DNA of 64,000 nucleotides from Rhodoferax sp. PAMC 29310 (GTDB taxonomy: Bacteria; Pseudomonadota; Gammaproteobacteria; Burkholderiales; Burkholderiaceae_C): the NCBI RefSeq assembly GCF_017948265.1, contig NZ_CP072852.1:186001-250000 (forward strand), in the 5' to 3' direction. The notes under the pieces were generated by a model that saw nothing but the letters and a program-made list of their open reading frames with translations, did not search any database and was not told the origin of the DNA. A program made the translations under genes and the position numbers. Below, piece after piece: positions 18,334-26,566 of this stretch (the first letter of the stretch is position 1; every line of letters starts with the position of its first letter).

Positions 18334-20230
18334 ATGAATCAACTTTCGTTGGAAAACCCGGTCGAATCGCGGCATTTGATACCCTCATCGCGGTTTCTAA
18401 CTCAGCTGGGCTCGGAATGTGCGCCGTCTGTTTTGACCATGATGCGTTCTGGTGTCTTGCAACGAGGGTTGGGCACATTGGGGCGCCTTATGCATGGCCA
18501 CGGGCTCTACCCTGTTTTTCAGCCCATTGTGGCGCTGTCGGATGGTGCTGTTTATGCCCATGAGTCACTGATCCGTGGACCTCAGGGAACGACACTTCAT
18601 TCTCCCGATGCGCTTTTGGCGGCGGCGGCCAGAGAAAAACTTAACTTTGAGTTTGAAAGCCAGTGCGTGTCGGTAGCGTTGGCGCGCTGGGGTGCTTTGC
18701 AGGAGCCCGGGCGGCTGTTTGTGAATATTAGTGCAGAAGTGCTGGTGCAGGTCATGACGCAATGGGGGTGGAGTGTCTGCTGCACATGATTCAGCGCTTT
18801 GGTGTGTTGCCTAGGTTGCTGGTGCTTGAAATTACCGAGCACGAACGGGTGAGTGACATGGATTGCCTGGCTGACGTCGTCAGCCAAATTCGGACTACTG
18901 GCGTTTCTTTGGCGCTGGATGATTTTGGTGACGGGCGTTCCAGCCTTCGCCTTTGGTCACAACTCAAACCTGAGTTTGTGAAAATCGACAAGTACTTCAC
19001 CAAAGACATCAGCCGCCACGCCGATAAATTGAAAACCATTCAAGCGCTGCAGCAGATTGCGGCAATTTTTGACACGGCCCTGGTGGCCGAGGGCATCGAA
19101 ACAGAGGATGACCTGCGCGTGCTGAGGGACCTAGGAATTGCCTACGGGCAGTGCTACTTTCTGGGTCGCCCCGCGATCGCTCCGGTGGCTGAAATAGCCA
19201 CCGCCGCTCAGACCACAATCAGCGACCGCCGCGTTTCCATTTACCCGGAGCTGCGGCGCAGCGCAACGTCGGGCCAACTCAAACAAATCTCTGCGGTAGC
19301 CGCCCCGGCCGTGGAGTCGAACACCACCAACGATGCATTGGCAGCGATATTTTTGGGCCAGCCCGACCTTCACGCAGTGGCCGTGGTGGATCAAAGTCGC
19401 CCGGTTGGCATCATCAACAGAGCGCGTTTTTTGAACGAGTACACCAAGCTCTATTACCGCGAGGTGTGTGGCGCAAAGTCCTGTGCGGTGCATATCAATG
19501 CCGCCCCTCGACTGATTGAGAGAAACCACAATGTCGATGAATTAATTGGCATTTTGACCTCCACCGACCAGCGTTATTTGGCCGACGGGTTTATCGTCAC
19601 AGAAAATGGCCGTTACGCGGGACTGGGCACGGGAGATCAATTGGTTCGCTCTGTCATGGAGACGCGGATTGAGGCTGCACGCCATGCCAACCCCTTGACG
19701 TTTTTGCCCGGCAACATTCCAATTAGTCAGCACATTGATCGGCTGTTGACCGCGAATACATCGTTTGTGGCGTGCTATGCCGACTTGAACAATTTCAAGC
19801 CCTTTAACGATCAGTATGGTTATTGGCGAGGCGACGAAATGATCCGCCTCGTGGCCCGCCTGACGCAGGCGCACTGTGACCCTTTGAGGGACTTTGTCGG
19901 CCATGTGGGTGGAGATGATTTCATCATCCTCTACCAAAGCGCCGATTGGGAGTTACAGTGCCAGCGCATCGTCGATGAGTTTGCCTTGGCGGCGGTGGAT
20001 CTGTTTATTTTTCGGCCCGCGAGGTGGGTGGCATTGCCGGCGAGGACCGCCACGGTGTGCAGCGGTTTTTCCCGTTGACGACGATTTCCATTGGAGCGGT
20101 GAAAGTGACTCCTAGCTTGTTTGGCAACGCAGAGCAAGTTGCCTCCGAGGCCGCCCGCGCGAAACACGACGCAAAAACGCGGGGGCAGGGTCTGCTGGTA
20201 CGCGACCCTTCAGCGGTTAGCGTTGCGTAA
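18334..20230 (+). pseudogene. EAL-CBS-GGDEF c-di-GMP protein, broken by two frameshifts
   Basis: Three frames join into one protein: 18334 to about 18770 (EAL start, AHESLIRGPQG, LFVNISAEVLVQ), then to about 20030 (rest of EAL with ALDDFGDGRSSL and LVAEGIETEDD; two CBS-like repeats; GGDEF with FVGHVGGDDFIIL), then to 20230 (GGIAGEDRHGVQRFFPLTTI). Each junction needs one extra base. Adding one G to GGGGG near 18770 and one base near GGTGGG at about 20034 gives 632 residues in frame. Both gaps are at homopolymer-like runs, so they may be assembly errors rather than real mutations. If real, no complete enzyme is made. The restored C-terminus overlaps the convergent ppx stop by 14 bases. Confidence 0.85.
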
Positions 20231-21725
20231 CTGTCAATGCCCAGGGCGTACGTTGCCACGCCACTGCTTCTTCTCTCAGCAGATAAGCCGACTGAGGAAA
20301 TGATTCGGCCCATGAGGCTGGGTAAGTGAGGTTGAAGCGCCTCGGGGCAGTTCGGTCGATGGATAGGCTCAAACCGGTGATGTCCGGGTCACGTCGGGCG
20401 TGGCAGACGGCGACGCCCAGACGTAAGGCCAGCAACTGGTGCATCAGGCCTTCATCCTCGAAGTCAAGCGCGAGCTTTTTCAGTTTGCCTTTTTGCCCCA
20501 AGACCAACATGCTGAGCCCCTGAAGTTCAGAAATTGAAAACCCCATTGCATCGGCGTGGCTCAAGATGTAGGCGCCGTGCTTCTGGTGATCGCTGTGAGA
20601 GACATGGCTGCCGATTTCATGGAGCAGGGCGGCCCAGCCCAGTGTTTGCCTTGGGATTTCGGCAAATACGGAGCCTGGAGAAGGGGCTTCTTCCAACAAA
20701 AACCCCAGGAAATGGTCCGCGGCCTTGGCAACTCGCTCTCCATGGGCGCGGTCGGTGCCAAATTTGGATGCCAGACGCTGAATGGATTGGGCTCTGACAT
20801 CGGTCTGGCCCTTTTCACCGCCGTTCAAGTCATACAAAAGGCCATGGCGCAAGCCTCCCGTGGCATGTTCCAACTGGTCGATCTGCAACAAGTCGAAGAG
20901 CGCCCGAACAATGCTCAGGCCGCCACCGATGATCGGGCGCCGGTCGTCTTTCATGCCGGGAAGTCGCAGCCGGTCAGCGCTTTGGGCGGTAAGCAGTTTG
21001 CCAAGCAGCCAATCCAGGCCGTCCCGGGAGATGGAGCCAGCAGGCCAACCCGATGCCACCAGCACGTCGCCCACGGCATTCACCGTGCCCGCAGACCCGT
21101 AGGCCACGTCCCAGGTGTCGCGTCGGTAGACGTTTAGCGCCTCGTCCAGCACCGCCTTGGCCGCGATCTCAGCCATTTGAAAGGAGTGCGGCGTGAATTG
21201 CTGATCCGGGAAATAACGTGTCGACCATGCAATGCTGCCTACGCGATAGGATTCCATGACCTTGGGTGAGTGACCTTGTCCCAGAATCAGTTCCGTGGAA
21301 CGTCCTCCAATGTCGATTACCAAGCGTCGCTCGTCACTTTGAGGCAGGGCTTCGGCGACACCCAGGTAAATCAGGCGGGCCTCTTCACGGCCCGAAATAA
21401 TGTTGATGGGAAAACCAAGCGCTTCGTTGGCACGTCCCAGGAATTCGTCCCGATTTCGGGCTTCGCGCAGAGTCTGAGTGGCAACTGCACGCACCTGGCC
21501 TACGCCAAATCCCGACAGGCGCTCGCCAAATCGAGCCAGACAATCCCAACCGCGCCGCATGGCCTCCGGCGTGAGGTTGCGGTCCTCATCTAGGCCACCG
21601 CCTTGGCGAACGGTTTCCTTCAAATACTCGGTACGGTAAAACTGCCCGTGGTCAACGCGGCCGATTTCAAGCCGGAAGCTGTTTGATCCCAAGTCAACTG
21701 CCGCCAGGCGGGTTCCATTCGTCAT
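20217..21725 (-). CDS. ppx: Exopolyphosphatase / Ppx-GppA phosphatase
   Basis: Removes terminal phosphate from polyphosphate (or pppGpp to ppGpp for GppA types). 502 residues from the ATG at 21725 (MTNGTRLAAVDLGSNSFRLE); an upstream start at 21806 would overlap poorly conserved sequence. Actin/Hsp70-like phosphate loops are AAVDLGSNSFRLEIG, VIDIGGRSTELILG and YGSAGTVNAVGDVL. The C-terminal HD-like part holds WAALLHEIGSHVSHSDHQKH. The second loop has GGRST where many relatives have GGGST. It is transcribed towards the frameshifted GGDEF gene. With ppk2 and pst nearby it belongs to the phosphate island. Confidence 0.92.
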   Translation of the reverse strand: MTNGTRLAAVDLGSNSFRLEIGRVDHGQFYRTEYLKETVRQGGGLDEDRNLTPEAMRRGWDCLARFGERLSGFGVGQVRAVATQTLREARNRDEFLGRANEALGFPINIISGREEARLIYLGVAEALPQSDERRLVIDIGGRSTELILGQGHSPKVMESYRVGSIAWSTRYFPDQQFTPHSFQMAEIAAKAVLDEALNVYRRDTWDVAYGSAGTVNAVGDVLVASGWPAGSISRDGLDWLLGKLLTAQSADRLRLPGMKDDRRPIIGGGLSIVRALFDLLQIDQLEHATGGLRHGLLYDLNGGEKGQTDVRAQSIQRLASKFGTDRAHGERVAKAADHFLGFLLEEAPSPGSVFAEIPRQTLGWAALLHEIGSHVSHSDHQKHGAYILSHADAMGFSISELQGLSMLVLGQKGKLKKLALDFEDEGLMHQLLALRLGVAVCHARRDPDITGLSLSIDRTAPRRFNLTYPASWAESFPQSAYLLREEAVAWQRTPWALTVTQR

Positions 21726-21798
21726 ATTTTTGTATGTACCTGTATTGCAACGCTCAGCATAGCATTGGTCGCGCGGGGTAACCGAGGGCTTGCGGCCA

Positions 21799-22944
21799 TC
21801 ATCCAATCAGCCGACCATCCGGCGTGATCATGCTTTGCGTGACGTAGTTGCTGGTGCGTCGCTTGTCCTGAAAACTCACATGAAAGCCCCCTAGGTCAAT
21901 GCTGGCGCGCTTGCGAAAGGCGGCGAGGGCGGTTTGGCGTGTAGGCAAGCCCTCAGTGCGGTTGAGTATCTGAGCGGTGTATTGCGCTGAAATATAGCCA
22001 GCCAAACTTTGAGGGGTGGGCGGTTCGTCAAAAAGCCGAATGAGTGCTTCCCGATAGGACTTGACGATGGCCATCGGTGAATTGACCATGGGGACAACCT
22101 GGGTGGCCATGACGGGCGTGCGCCTAGTGGCGCCCATTTGCATCATGGTCTGGAGATTCACATTGGCAAGGGCCACCACATAGTGGCGCCGCGCTTGCTG
22201 GTCAGCACCTCCCAGAAACTGAACCAGCTCAGGGGTTCCCCCTACAAATAGCAAGATCCGCGGCGTGCTTGCGGGCAGCCCTTGTCCCATGGAGGCCAGA
22301 TCGCGGGTTAGTTTGACGGGTTTGATGGTGATGTTCAACGCGGTAGCTGCTTGCTCAACGTCGCGCTGGTTTTGTTCATGCTCGTGTTTGGTCGCATAGA
22401 CGACCCCGATTTCAGGGACGCCCATCACGGCCAATGACTTCATCGCTTGTGAAATTTGGTCCTGACGAAACGCAAAAATCGGAAAAGTGATGTCGTCCAA
22501 GACGATATCTGAACTTTGCAGCCAAGGTGCCACGTGGGCTATTTCCAGCTTTTCTTTTTGCATCAAAGCGACCAACCGGACGGCCGCTCGGTCACTCGCG
22601 GTGCCGCAAAGCGCAACGCACTGGGGGGTGTTTTGGATGGACTCAACGGCCGATTGCATGCTGGCAGCGGTGCTGTCGACATCCAGCGTCAAGTGCTGCA
22701 CCGGGCGGCCCTTGATTCCACCCTTGATGTTGACTTCCCGCCAGGCGGTACGAGAGCCAATCAAAAAGTCGCGGGAAACGTCGAGTTGATCGGCGCTGTT
22801 GTCCACAATTTGGGCCACGATCAATGGGTCTGACGGATTGCCTCCCTTTTTAGTTTGTGCCCAAAGGGGGGCGACGGCGCCAGCGGCCAGGCCAATGGCA
22901 CTGCGCAGAACGGTGCGGCGGCTTTCGTTGTCTGAAAAGATCAT
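21799..22944 (-). CDS. Tat-type periplasmic binding protein (branched-chain amino acid ABC family)
   Basis: A 381-residue type I periplasmic binding protein (Leu/Ile/Val or urea/amide receptor family). The N-terminus ESRRTVLRSAIGLAAGAVAP has a twin-arginine motif (SRRTVL) and an A-Q cleavage region, so Tat export is likely. The mature part follows the two-lobe pattern (PLIVAQIVDNSADQLDVSRD, VNIKGGIKGRPVQHLTLDVD). No permease or ATPase is adjacent, so it could be a sensory receptor or serve a distant transporter. Neighbours are ppx (73 bases downstream) and the broken ppk2 upstream; the link with polyphosphate is positional only. No clear Shine-Dalgarno is seen. Confidence 0.8.
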   Translation of the reverse strand: MIFSDNESRRTVLRSAIGLAAGAVAPLWAQTKKGGNPSDPLIVAQIVDNSADQLDVSRDFLIGSRTAWREVNIKGGIKGRPVQHLTLDVDSTAASMQSAVESIQNTPQCVALCGTASDRAAVRLVALMQKEKLEIAHVAPWLQSSDIVLDDITFPIFAFRQDQISQAMKSLAVMGVPEIGVVYATKHEHEQNQRDVEQAATALNITIKPVKLTRDLASMGQGLPASTPRILLFVGGTPELVQFLGGADQQARRHYVVALANVNLQTMMQMGATRRTPVMATQVVPMVNSPMAIVKSYREALIRLFDEPPTPQSLAGYISAQYTAQILNRTEGLPTRQTALAAFRKRASIDLGGFHVSFQDKRRTSNYVTQSMITPDGRLIG

Positions 22945-23060: not shown

Positions 23061-23176
23061 TCAATAGACAGTGGGCACCAAAAGTTCCTCAGCAACGGCC
23101 TGACGCACATAGTTGTCATGGCGTTCGCGTGTGGGGAGGACTATGGTCGGGTGCTCGGTTTCGCCGTAGGGTATCT
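23061..23176 (-). pseudogene. ppk2: 3' fragment of polyphosphate kinase 2
   Basis: The last part of ppk2, cut off from the rest by the IS element. In the original frame it reads QIPYGETEHPTIVLP and then RERHDNYVRQAVAEELLVP, the usual PPK2 C-terminus. It ends with TGA at 23061-23063. Joining it to the 5' fragment and counting the target site once gives 975 bases in frame, 324 residues. Confidence 0.9.
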
Positions 23177-23184
23177 GGCCAAGC
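23177..23184. repeat. Target site duplication, left copy
   Basis: GGCCAAGC directly before the left end of the IS. The same 8 bases follow the right end at 24517-24524. Confidence 0.93.
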
Positions 23185-24516
23185 GAGGGTGTCCCGAATT
23201 TTGTGTAAACGGCGGTTAAGTTAGACGCGCGGCATGCGCTCGTCAAACTGAATGGTAAAGCGGTTCAGAGCAGCCTTCCAATCCCGAATCGGCATCGTCC
23301 ATTTCTGGCTGATGTTGTTCAGTGCCAGATAGAACAGCTTGAACACTGCGTCCTCAGTTGGGAACGAGCCGCGGGTCTTGGTTATTTTGCGCAGGCTCAT
23401 GTTCACGGACTCAATGGCGTTGGTCGTGTAAATCACTTTTCGGATGTCTGGCGGGTATTCAAAGAACGGTATCAAGCGTGTCCAGTTGCGCCGCCAGGAG
23501 CGCCCAATCGGAGCGAAGGAATCGTCCCATTTGACCTCGAATGCCGTGAGTTGTCGCTCAGCTTCGGATTCAGTGGGCGCAGCGTAAATCAGCCGCAAAT
23601 CCGCGGCGACTTCCTTGCGCTGTTTCCACCCCACGAAGTTCAGGCTGTGACGCACCATGTGAACAATGCAAAGCTGCACCGTCGCCTTGGGGAAGACTGC
23701 CTCAATGGCGTCAGGGAAACCTTTGAGCCCATCTACGCAGGCGATAAAGATGTCAGCCACGCCCCGGTTCTTCAGTTCAGTCACCACCTGCAGCCAGAAC
23801 TTGGCCCCTTCGGTTTGGGCCATCCACAGGCCCAGTACCTCTTTGAGGCCGTCCAGGTTGACGCCAATGGCCAAGTACAGGGCCTTGACCCGCACAGTAC
23901 CGTTGTCGCGCACCTTGACGTGAATGCAGTCCATGTAGACGATGGGGTACAGCGCCTCCAAGGGGCGCGACTGCCAGGCTTTGACCTCGTCCATGACGGC
24001 GTCGGTCACGGATGAAATCAGGGTAGGAGACACTTCGGCGCCGTACATCTCCTGCAGATGGCCTTGAATCTCGCGTACCGTCATGCCTCGGGCATACAGC
24101 GACAGTATCTTGTCGTCAAAGCCGCTCCAGCGGGTCTGGTGTTTGCCAATCAGTTGGGGCTCGAAGGTGCCGGCGCGGTCACGGGGGATTTCTATGGGTA
24201 GCTGGCCAAAATCGCCTTTGAGCGTTTTCTTGCTGCACCCGTTGCGGGTGTTGCCCGCTTCATTGGCAACCAACTGGTTCTTGCCGTGACCCAGGTGGCC
24301 GGTCAATTCGGCTTGCAAAGCTCGCTCGACCAAGGCTTTGGTGAGCTGCGTCAAGAGGCCATTCTGGCCAATCAGGTCTTCGGGCTTTTTGTAGTCGGCC
24401 AACAGGGCGTCAATCAGCTCGGCGGGTAAGGGTTTCATCTCTACGGTCATCTCGGCTCCATGCAAGACAGCAGTTTCCTGCCAAATAACCGTTTACACAA
24501 AACTTCTTACACCCTC
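23185..24516 (-). mobile_element. IS256-family insertion sequence
   Basis: A complete 1332-bp element. The terminal inverted repeats are about 28 bp, 23 identical: each starts GAGGGTGT and ends TTTTGTGTAAACGG (23185-23212 and the complement of 24489-24516). An 8-bp target duplication flanks it. It carries one intact transposase gene. Size, repeat ends and duplication length all fit IS256. It interrupts ppk2. Confidence 0.95.
23221..24450 (-). CDS. IS256-family transposase
   Basis: A mutator-type DDE transposase of about 409 residues from the ATG at 24450 (MTVEMKPLPAELIDALLADY); a start 5 codons earlier at 24465 is also possible. It looks intact. The N-terminal DNA-binding part includes LVERALQAELTGHLGHGKNQ. 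Probable catalytic residues are D in PIVYMDCIHVKV, D in FIACVDGLKGFPDA and E in TTNAIESVNMSLRK, with the typical QLCIVHMVRHSL between. With matched ends it is probably mobile. Its presence of both ends with a clean target duplication suggests a fairly recent insertion. Confidence 0.95.
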   Translation of the reverse strand: MTVEMKPLPAELIDALLADYKKPEDLIGQNGLLTQLTKALVERALQAELTGHLGHGKNQLVANEAGNTRNGCSKKTLKGDFGQLPIEIPRDRAGTFEPQLIGKHQTRWSGFDDKILSLYARGMTVREIQGHLQEMYGAEVSPTLISSVTDAVMDEVKAWQSRPLEALYPIVYMDCIHVKVRDNGTVRVKALYLAIGVNLDGLKEVLGLWMAQTEGAKFWLQVVTELKNRGVADIFIACVDGLKGFPDAIEAVFPKATVQLCIVHMVRHSLNFVGWKQRKEVAADLRLIYAAPTESEAERQLTAFEVKWDDSFAPIGRSWRRNWTRLIPFFEYPPDIRKVIYTTNAIESVNMSLRKITKTRGSFPTEDAVFKLFYLALNNISQKWTMPIRDWKAALNRFTIQFDERMPRV

Positions 24517-24524
24517 GGCCAAGC
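24517..24524. repeat. Target site duplication, right copy
   Basis: GGCCAAGC directly after the right end of the IS, identical to 23177-23184. Confidence 0.93.
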
Positions 24525-25375
24525 AGATGATGAATGCAGTTCAGGCGGGCCTTTTTCTTGTCCACGGCCTGGACCACCCACCAAGGTGCTTCCGGAATGT
24601 GGGTGCGTTCCAGCATCACTTCCTTGGCTTTGGTGTAGTCCTCCCAGCGGCGCCCGGACTCCAGGTTCATTGGGCTGAGTTTCCATTGCTTCAGTGGGTC
24701 GTGAATGCGGCCCATAAATCGCAGGTGCTGCTCCTCGTCCGAGATGGAAAACCAGTACTTGATCAACTGGATGTCTGAGCGAACCAGCATTTTTTCAAAT
24801 TCAGGGACCGATCTGAAAAACTCGTCGTACTGATCGTCAGTGCAAAAGCCCATGACCCGCTCTACGCCAGCGCGCTTGTACCAACTGCGGTCAAACAACA
24901 CAATTTCGCCCGCGCCAGGCAAGTGCGCCACGTAGCGCTGGAAATACCATTGACTTTGCTCCCGGGTGTTGGGTGCGGGAAGGGCGGCCACGCGGCAAAC
25001 TCGGGGGTTGAGCCGCTGGTTAATGCGCTTGATCACGCCACCTTTGCCCGCCGCGTCCCGGCCCTCAAAGAGAACGACTACCTTGTGGCCTGTTTTGACC
25101 ACCCAGTCTTGCAGCTTGACCAATTCAGCTTGCATGCGAAACAGTTCCCGAAAGTACTGCTGACGAATGACCCGGTACTCACTGGAGTGCAGTTCTACTG
25201 GACTGAGCGTTATCTCGTCCATGTTTCGATCCTCAAACTCCAGTTCAAGCTCTTCCTCGTAGGCGTCGGACAGGTCCTGCGCCAACCTCTCGCCATATGC
25301 TTCATCATGAATTGAGCTCAATTTGGACTCCCTTAAGTTGGGCTCAGGAAAAGGCTCAGAGTAGACCGTGCTCAT
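24517..25375 (-). pseudogene. ppk2: 5' fragment of polyphosphate kinase 2
   Basis: PPK2 transfers phosphate between polyphosphate and nucleoside (di)phosphates. The first 286 residues remain, with the Walker A loop in FEGRDAAGKGGVIKRI and the LFDRSWYKRAGVERVMGF segment. Reading on into the IS adds about 35 foreign residues before a stop at 24410, so a 321-residue fusion could be made without the native C-terminus. In the RSWY motif the next residue is Lys where relatives I know have Asn (WYNR). It faces pstS across a region with a Pho box. Activity of the truncated form is unlikely but not excluded. Confidence 0.93.
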
Positions 25376-25440
25376 GTCAATTTCATGACGGTTCGACCAA
25401 AGGCTCGTGCAGGCGAAGGCAATGTGTCAACGGCGGCTTT

Positions 25441-25474
25441 GTGTCACAGTAGTGTCATATCAGCGTCTTATAGT
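25441..25474 (+). promoter_or_regulatory. Pho box and -10 of the pstS promoter
   Basis: GTGTCAC (25441-25447) and GTGTCAT (25452-25458) are two 7-bp repeats 11 bases apart, the PhoB half-site pattern. TATAGT (25469-25474) follows 10 bases later as a -10, with the Pho box in place of a -35. A third TGTCA lies upstream at 25425-25429. PhoB is encoded 4.6 kb downstream. Confidence 0.8.
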
Positions 25475-25522
25475 GAATACCGCTACCGAAATTACCTTCT
25501 CCTCAACTTAAAAGGTCTCTCG

Positions 25523-26566
25523 ATGAAAATCAATTCCAAAATGTCTTTGATCAGCTTGGCTGGTGTCGCCCTCATTGCAGCTTCGAGCGTGGCTCATGCC
25601 CAGCAGATCACCGGTGCGGGTGCCAGCTTCCCGGCCCCTGTCTATTCCAAGTGGGCCGCTGACTACAACAAAGCGACCGGCGTTCGAGTGAACTACCAAT
25701 CCGTAGGATCTGGTGCCGGCATCAAGCAAATTGACTCGGGCACGGTGGATTTCGGTGCTTCGGACATGCCTCAGACTGACGAGGTGTTGGCCAAGAAGGG
25801 CCAGATGCAGTTCCCCACCTTGATCGGTGGCACCGTGCCCGTGATCAACGTCAAAGGTATTGCTCCCGGTCAAATGAAGCTTGACGGTCAAGTGCTGGGT
25901 GACATTTACCTGGGCAAGATTACCAAGTGGAATGATGCTGCCATCGTGGCATTGAATCCTGGTTTGGCTCTGCCAGACGCGGCGATCGCCCCAGTTCGCC
26001 GTGCCGATGGATCGGGAACAACGTTTAACTTTACCAATTACCTGAGCCGCGTCCATACTGAGTGGAAGTCGAAAGTGGGTGAGGGCACAGCCGTGAATTG
26101 GCCAGTGGGTGCAGGTGGCAAGGGCAATGAAGGTGTCGCCGCTTTTGTCAGTCGCCTGCCCAACTCGATTGGTTATGTCGAGTACTCGTACGTCAAGCAA
26201 AACAAAATGACTTACACGTTACTGAAAAATCGGGACGGTCTGTTTGTGTCGCCTGACGACGAGTCGTTCAAGGCCGCTGCAGCGGGCGCTGATTGGTCAA
26301 AATCGTTTTATCAGCTGATCACTGACCAGCCTGGCAAGAATGCATGGCCCATCACAACGGCGACTTTTATCTTGATGAACCTCAAGCAAACCAAGCCAGA
26401 AGCCGCGACGGAAACTTTCAAGTTCTTCACGTGGGCGTTCAAAAGCGGCGACAAAATTGCAGCCGATCTGGACTACGTGCCTATGCCTGACAGCGTGGTT
26501 AGCGTGATTGAGAAAGCCTGGGGTCAAGTAAAAGACGAATCCGGCAAGCCGGTGGCATTGAAGTAA
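25523..26566 (+). CDS. pstS: Phosphate ABC transporter, periplasmic phosphate-binding protein
   Basis: PstS captures inorganic phosphate for the PstCAB importer. 347 residues from ATG 25523; an upstream in-frame extension to 25385 would run through the Pho box and is rejected. A signal peptide (MKINSKMSLISLAGVALIAA to AHAQ) precedes the mature start QITGAGASFPAPVYSKW. Phosphate ligands lie in GAGASFPAP, VGSGAGIKQI, DFGASDMP and VRRADGSGTTFNF. AAAAGG is 8 bases upstream. It is the first gene of pstSCAB-phoU-phoB-phoR and probably the most strongly phosphate-regulated. Confidence 0.97.
   Translation: MKINSKMSLISLAGVALIAASSVAHAQQITGAGASFPAPVYSKWAADYNKATGVRVNYQSVGSGAGIKQIDSGTVDFGASDMPQTDEVLAKKGQMQFPTLIGGTVPVINVKGIAPGQMKLDGQVLGDIYLGKITKWNDAAIVALNPGLALPDAAIAPVRRADGSGTTFNFTNYLSRVHTEWKSKVGEGTAVNWPVGAGGKGNEGVAAFVSRLPNSIGYVEYSYVKQNKMTYTLLKNRDGLFVSPDDESFKAAAAGADWSKSFYQLITDQPGKNAWPITTATFILMNLKQTKPEAATETFKFFTWAFKSGDKIAADLDYVPMPDSVVSVIEKAWGQVKDESGKPVALK

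Follow-up and report, generated by a model that had tools for sequence, protein, structure and literature searches.

The genome of Rhodoferax sp. PAMC 29310 consists of one contig of 4,593,249 bases, and the 64-kb stretch analysed here (positions 186001-250000, hereafter the window) contains a PPK2 gene (ppk2) that is interrupted by an insertion sequence. Both pieces of ppk2, a periplasmic binding protein and ppx share one strand, and pstS, the first gene of pstSCAB-phoU-phoBR, lies on the other (Table 1). The window frames downstream of pstS are those which we take to be pstC to phoR.

Table 1. Coordinates of features at the interrupted ppk2 locus, in positions of the window.
Feature	Position	Strand	Basis or remark
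ppx	20217..21806	-	only Ppx/GppA match in the genome
Peripla_BP_6 periplasmic binding protein, between ppx and ppk2	21799..22944	-	Pfam
ppk2, severed end (two junction-codon bases, 37 codons, stop)	23061..23176	-	tblastn against relatives
Target duplication GGCCAAGC, left copy	23177..23184	.	exact 8 bp
IS256-family insertion sequence, 1332 bp	23185..24516	-	ends, duplications, 23 full genome copies
Terminal inverted repeat, left arm	23185..23212	+	repeat search
Transposase	23221..24465	-	PF00872, NF033543; same direction as ppk2
Terminal inverted repeat, right arm	24489..24516	-	repeat search
Present open frame, 321 aa (286 ppk2 residues and 35 from the element)	24410..25375	-	
ppk2, first part (286 codons and one base)	24517..25375	-	PF03976, TIGR03707
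Target duplication GGCCAAGC, right copy	24517..24524	.	exact 8 bp; inside ppk2 first part
Pho-box-like site, 64 bp before pstS start	25442..25458	+	0 mismatches to a Pho-box pattern
pstS, first of pstSCAB-phoU-phoBR, start at a chosen internal ATG	25523..26566	+	PF12849, relatives' gene order

The inserted element is bounded by imperfect terminal inverted repeats, which the repeat search returned as a pair with 29-nt arms (83%) including one base of the target duplication. At two fixed 8-base sites, agreement such as that between the flanking duplications would be expected by chance about once in 65,000 cases, given equal base use. The transposase, of 414 aa if read from a TTG or 409 aa from the ATG at 24450, matches PF00872 (E 8.7e-118, 393.9 bits, cut-off 21) and the NCBIfam model NF033543 transpos_IS256 (410.1 bits, cut-off 150). 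An 8- or 9-bp target duplication is a criterion of the IS256 family, and the element combines the 8-bp duplication with terminal inverted repeats and the transposase model of that family. The repeats, the exact GGCCAAGC pair and the transposase profiles thus bear out the preliminary description, which had proposed an IS256-family element within ppk2 flanked by an 8-bp duplication.

The first piece of ppk2 (286 aa, 24518-25375) matches PF03976 with an E-value of 3.4e-104 over profile positions 4-218 of 229 and TIGR03707 with 357.9 bits (cut-off 301.8) over positions 3-218 of 230, so that the 286 remaining residues correspond to 215 of the 229 Pfam PPK2 positions. The insertion point lies in codon 287, and the last 38 codons are lost from the reading frame; a 37-aa tail and the stop codon are found at 23061-23174. 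Today's open frame runs on into the element, and its first element-read codon includes one base of ppk2. Within window positions 23221-25375 the transposase gene is co-directional with ppk2 and overlaps the end of this present frame.

An exactly restorable frame of 324 residues had been claimed for the interrupted gene, and the arithmetic holds (859 + 116 = 975 bases, or 324 residues and a stop codon). Continuity was judged against the uninterrupted genes of relatives, without joining the pieces, and in these genes the two pieces stand in line. A tblastn comparison with 13 ppk2 loci of relatives gave matches to both pieces at 12 of them. At ten of the 13 loci (L068-L074, L077-L079) the two matches stand one codon apart where the first reaches residue 286, or two where it ends at residue 285, and at L075 and L076 the tail match begins at its residue 3, with a gap of three codons. 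Because of these codon gaps, all 12 two-piece loci fit a single junction codon. The tail gave no match above threshold at L080, yet the open frame there continues into a similar tail.

A search of the genome with the element identified 23 full copies and, among 40 of 52 candidates scored, at least three partial copies (two of 319 bases, one of 48 bases); the 23 near-identical copies suggest that the element is mobile. The full copies differ from the one in ppk2 by 0-5 mismatches, and two of the other 22 are identical to it. The comparison at 1332 bp covered 22 copies, which carry seven private changes in all; L022, which matches over 1331 bases, was excluded from it. Of the 23 full copies, 14 lie between exact 8-bp target duplications. 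By eye, the flanks of L006 and L025 carry duplications with one mismatch, and L008, L010 and L018 are without an 8-bp duplication, with 6 bp shared at L008. Some match to the element occurs in 19 of 60 genomes (own included), the best listed match outside its own genome being a full-length one of 85% identity (G026; 59 genomes, at most six candidates scored in each). No near-identical sister strain was found among the genomes searched (same-genus and family sets). Because the ppk2 copy is identical to two of the other full copies and retains an exact duplication, the insertion was probably recent, in line with the initial proposal, and gene conversion among copies could make it look younger than its real age.

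Several of the other copies are composite or appear rearranged. In two distant places of the genome, the first 319 bases of the element are directly followed by a full copy (positions 1182-2832 of L009 and 1501-3151 of L015), each of these 1,651-bp composites lying within its own outer 8-bp duplication (GCCTGAGA and CTGCTCCC, respectively). The composite seems to be mobile as a unit, and its shape could be accounted for by a nested insertion with subsequent recombination. The target duplications AGCAAAAA and GGCGCATG are swapped between L020 (genome positions 1378664-1379995, + strand) and L022 (498364-499694, - strand), provided that the terminal base of L022, which is unmatched, is counted as the last base of the element; the opposite orientation and swapped duplications of these copies look as they would after mutual recombination inverting about 879 kb. 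Five copies (L006, L013, L016, L017, L023) are located inside frames that are open on both sides, the genes hit encoding a phage-integrase-like protein, an rve-domain transposase, an outer-membrane efflux protein, a Pfam-less protein and an AMP-binding enzyme. Furthermore, a PAS-domain protein and a chemotaxis receptor stop at the element in L010 and L015, with only 2 and 7 in-phase codons beyond it, respectively.

The remaining part of ppk2 carries the substitutions N167K, G201D and D237N at three of the 60 positions that are invariant in all 66 other PPK2 sequences (51 orthologs with ≥65% identity and 15 more distant, distinct sequences). Alignments spanning 150 residues or fewer were dropped from this set, as were the window's own matches (more than 99% identical), and L092, L097 and L098, with a stop flagged in the matched stretch, were kept. 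These changes, which the preliminary description did not include, are substitutions, not stops or frameshifts. The residues N, G and D are found at these positions in the Francisella and Sinorhizobium chains, and the solved Francisella D117N mutant differs elsewhere. Its mutated position 117 aligns with residue 162 of ppk2, the aspartate of the DRSWY motif, and N167K lies five residues past this aspartate.

In a leave-one-out count among the 52 orthologs, the split ppk2 ranks highest (4/128), followed by L047 (3/127), and 39 of the 52 score zero; among all 67 sequences it ranks third, behind two divergent paralogs (14 and 12). An earlier, smaller set (n=23) placed it second (5/137) after L049 (6/138). 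The corresponding smaller counts for neighbouring genes, with 9 to 23 sequences per gene, gave 4/191 for pstS (third of 16), 13/235 for ppx (tied for most of 10), 1/247 for pstC, 1/162 for phoU and 0/144 for pstB. As ppk2 is not distinct from every neighbouring gene in the smaller count, the case for prior erosion is weakened. The surplus of unusual substitutions among the 52 orthologs is modest.

Neutral fixation of the three changes since the insertion would imply roughly 18 changes over the 858 bases of ppk2 and roughly 28 over the element, against none observed between the element and its two identical siblings. The probability of three or more neutral post-insertion changes at the element's private rate is about 6e-6, and an origin of the substitutions at residues 167, 201 and 237 after the insertion was dropped on this ground. 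Because of this low probability and the unchanged element, the three substitutions probably predate the insertion; gene conversion among copies would weaken the rate argument.

The AlphaFold2 model of the 321-residue frame (mean pLDDT 70.0; shallow alignment of 6 sequences) shows usable confidence in the core and pLDDT below 50 for residues 1-24 and 289-321, the latter comprising nearly all of the element-encoded end. The model aligns with Francisella PPK2 (5ll0, 5llb, 5llf) over 217 columns with an rmsd of 1.5-1.6 and a TM-score of 0.86 by target. In the model of the uninterrupted protein of a relative (L085; mean pLDDT 71.5; shallow alignment of 5 sequences), residues 272-305, nearly its entire tail, also have pLDDT below 50, and alignments as shallow as these (5-6 sequences) by themselves depress model confidence. 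The lost tail of ppk2 is thus modelled as mostly disordered. By eye it is conserved in the frames of 12 of 13 relatives, the exception (L072) having an in-frame shortening, and the insertion takes away a conserved end and little of the known fold. The description of the gene as a PPK2 stands, as a ppk2 of the TIGR03707 kind split by an IS256-family element, and, as the kinase core is nearly complete, the accompanying claim of a complete loss of function may not hold. A 321-residue product with little or no kinase activity is the likely outcome; with its core nearly complete and the lost tail mostly disordered, the protein may nevertheless retain activity.

The genome contains three PPK2 matches, namely the split gene and open frames of 422 aa and 267 aa, both of which score above the TIGR03707 cut-off. 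In addition, its single PP_kinase match is an open ppk1 of 716 aa above the TIGR03705 cut-off. The split had been suggested to shift the polyphosphate balance toward breakdown on condition that no other synthesising gene exists; because an open ppk1 and two other open ppk2 genes are present, this suggestion loses its condition, and such a tilt is not supported. Whole-cell polyphosphate synthesis should be little affected.

In relatives, pstS lies divergently beside ppk2 at nine of the 13 ppk2 loci (L068, L070, L072-L075, L077-L079), and an uninterrupted ppk2 is situated between pstS and ppx at six of them (L068, L070, L072, L073, L077, L078). No ppk2 match above 38% identity occurs between pstS and the binding protein at L062 (Rhodoferax) or at L065 and L067 (Polaromonas), which are all the named loci (three of six) having both of these genes; the binding protein shares 52-60% identity with its named-locus matches, which suggests a source among the Comamonadaceae close to Rhodoferax. 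A close ppk2 ortholog (≥77% identity) was detected in 15 of 35 other same-genus genomes, many of them incomplete drafts, and 199 of 399 family genomes (own included) contain a ppk2 match at E 1e-100 or better. One relative (G030) encodes two ppk2 orthologs (L069, L070), only one of which is located beside pstS.

At 12 other loci, the best Pho-box-like site oriented towards pstS has 1-3 mismatches and is located 51-173 bp upstream of the pstS match; where ppk2 is absent (three loci), this distance is 51-64 bp. In the ppk2 direction, the best site in the window has three mismatches, and the best sites elsewhere have one (L068, L070) or two (L074, L075, L078); at L067, where ppk2 is absent, the best site in that direction has 0 mismatches. 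Judged from these sites, Pho control of pstS is plausible, and ppk2 may be Pho-controlled in some relatives. The Pho control initially attributed to the split ppk2 is unproven, as the position of the window's site suits pstS, comparable sites precede pstS at three loci where ppk2 is missing and the best site facing ppk2 has three mismatches. Promoter and terminator scans of positions 24300-25600 revealed nothing beyond shuffled sequences.

We consider it most probable (roughly 0.7) that a recent insertion of an IS256-family element interrupted one of the three ppk2 genes at codon 287, with an 8-bp duplication, and that the gene hit was redundant and possibly already eroding. The element has multiplied in this genome and inserted, probably recently, at this codon, duplicating 8 bp of the target. 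That ppk2 was already eroding or dispensable by then is a reading towards which we lean, since the three substitutions at otherwise invariant positions are probably older than the insertion. The same substitutions speak against an insertion that alone wrecked a fully functional, Pho-controlled PPK2 and thereby tilted the cell to polyphosphate breakdown; the recent look of the insertion and the presence of ppx would suit such a course, but with ppk1 and two other ppk2 genes remaining and the Pho-box-like site placed for pstS, we regard it as improbable.

Somewhat less improbable, though still unlikely, is a ppk2 that was trimmed and not lost, its kinase core kept and still working with 35 element-read residues at its end. 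The insertion past profile position 218 of 229, the mostly disordered tail in the model and the in-frame shortened tail of L072 are in keeping with this possibility, against which stand the missing final 11 Pfam profile positions, the conservation of the tail by eye in 12 of 13 relatives' frames and the proximity of N167K to the DRSWY aspartate. A reshaped, working PPK2, its tail swapped for the element residues and its unusual residues (one of them near DRSWY) part of the new enzyme, with transcription of the transposase possibly following that of ppk2, seems very improbable; as both genes run in the same direction and their frames overlap, read-through from ppk2 could reach the transposase. 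Under the favoured reading, a recent insertion into a redundant gene, the disruption of ppk2 is an ordinary insertion event and a clean case of an insertion sequence in an apparently already weakened gene for which paralogs provide backup. It cautions that a conspicuous insertion is not necessarily the first or only damage, and that pathway conclusions require the rest of the genome.

The element shares with the IS256 family a Mutator-type transposase, a length of about 1.3 kb, imperfect inverted repeats of about 28 bp and an 8-bp duplication, and no difference from the family was found. With PPK2 class I, which we take to be the TIGR03707 type from the title of 6dzg, ppk2 has in common a score above the profile cut-off and the motifs GRDAAGKGG and DRSWY. 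It differs from this class in lacking the end after residue 286 and in its residues K167, D201 and N237. In the model comparison, ppk2 is 55% identical to the PPK2 of Francisella tularensis (5ll0) and 52% identical to that of Sinorhizobium meliloti (3czq/6dzg) over 217-219 columns.
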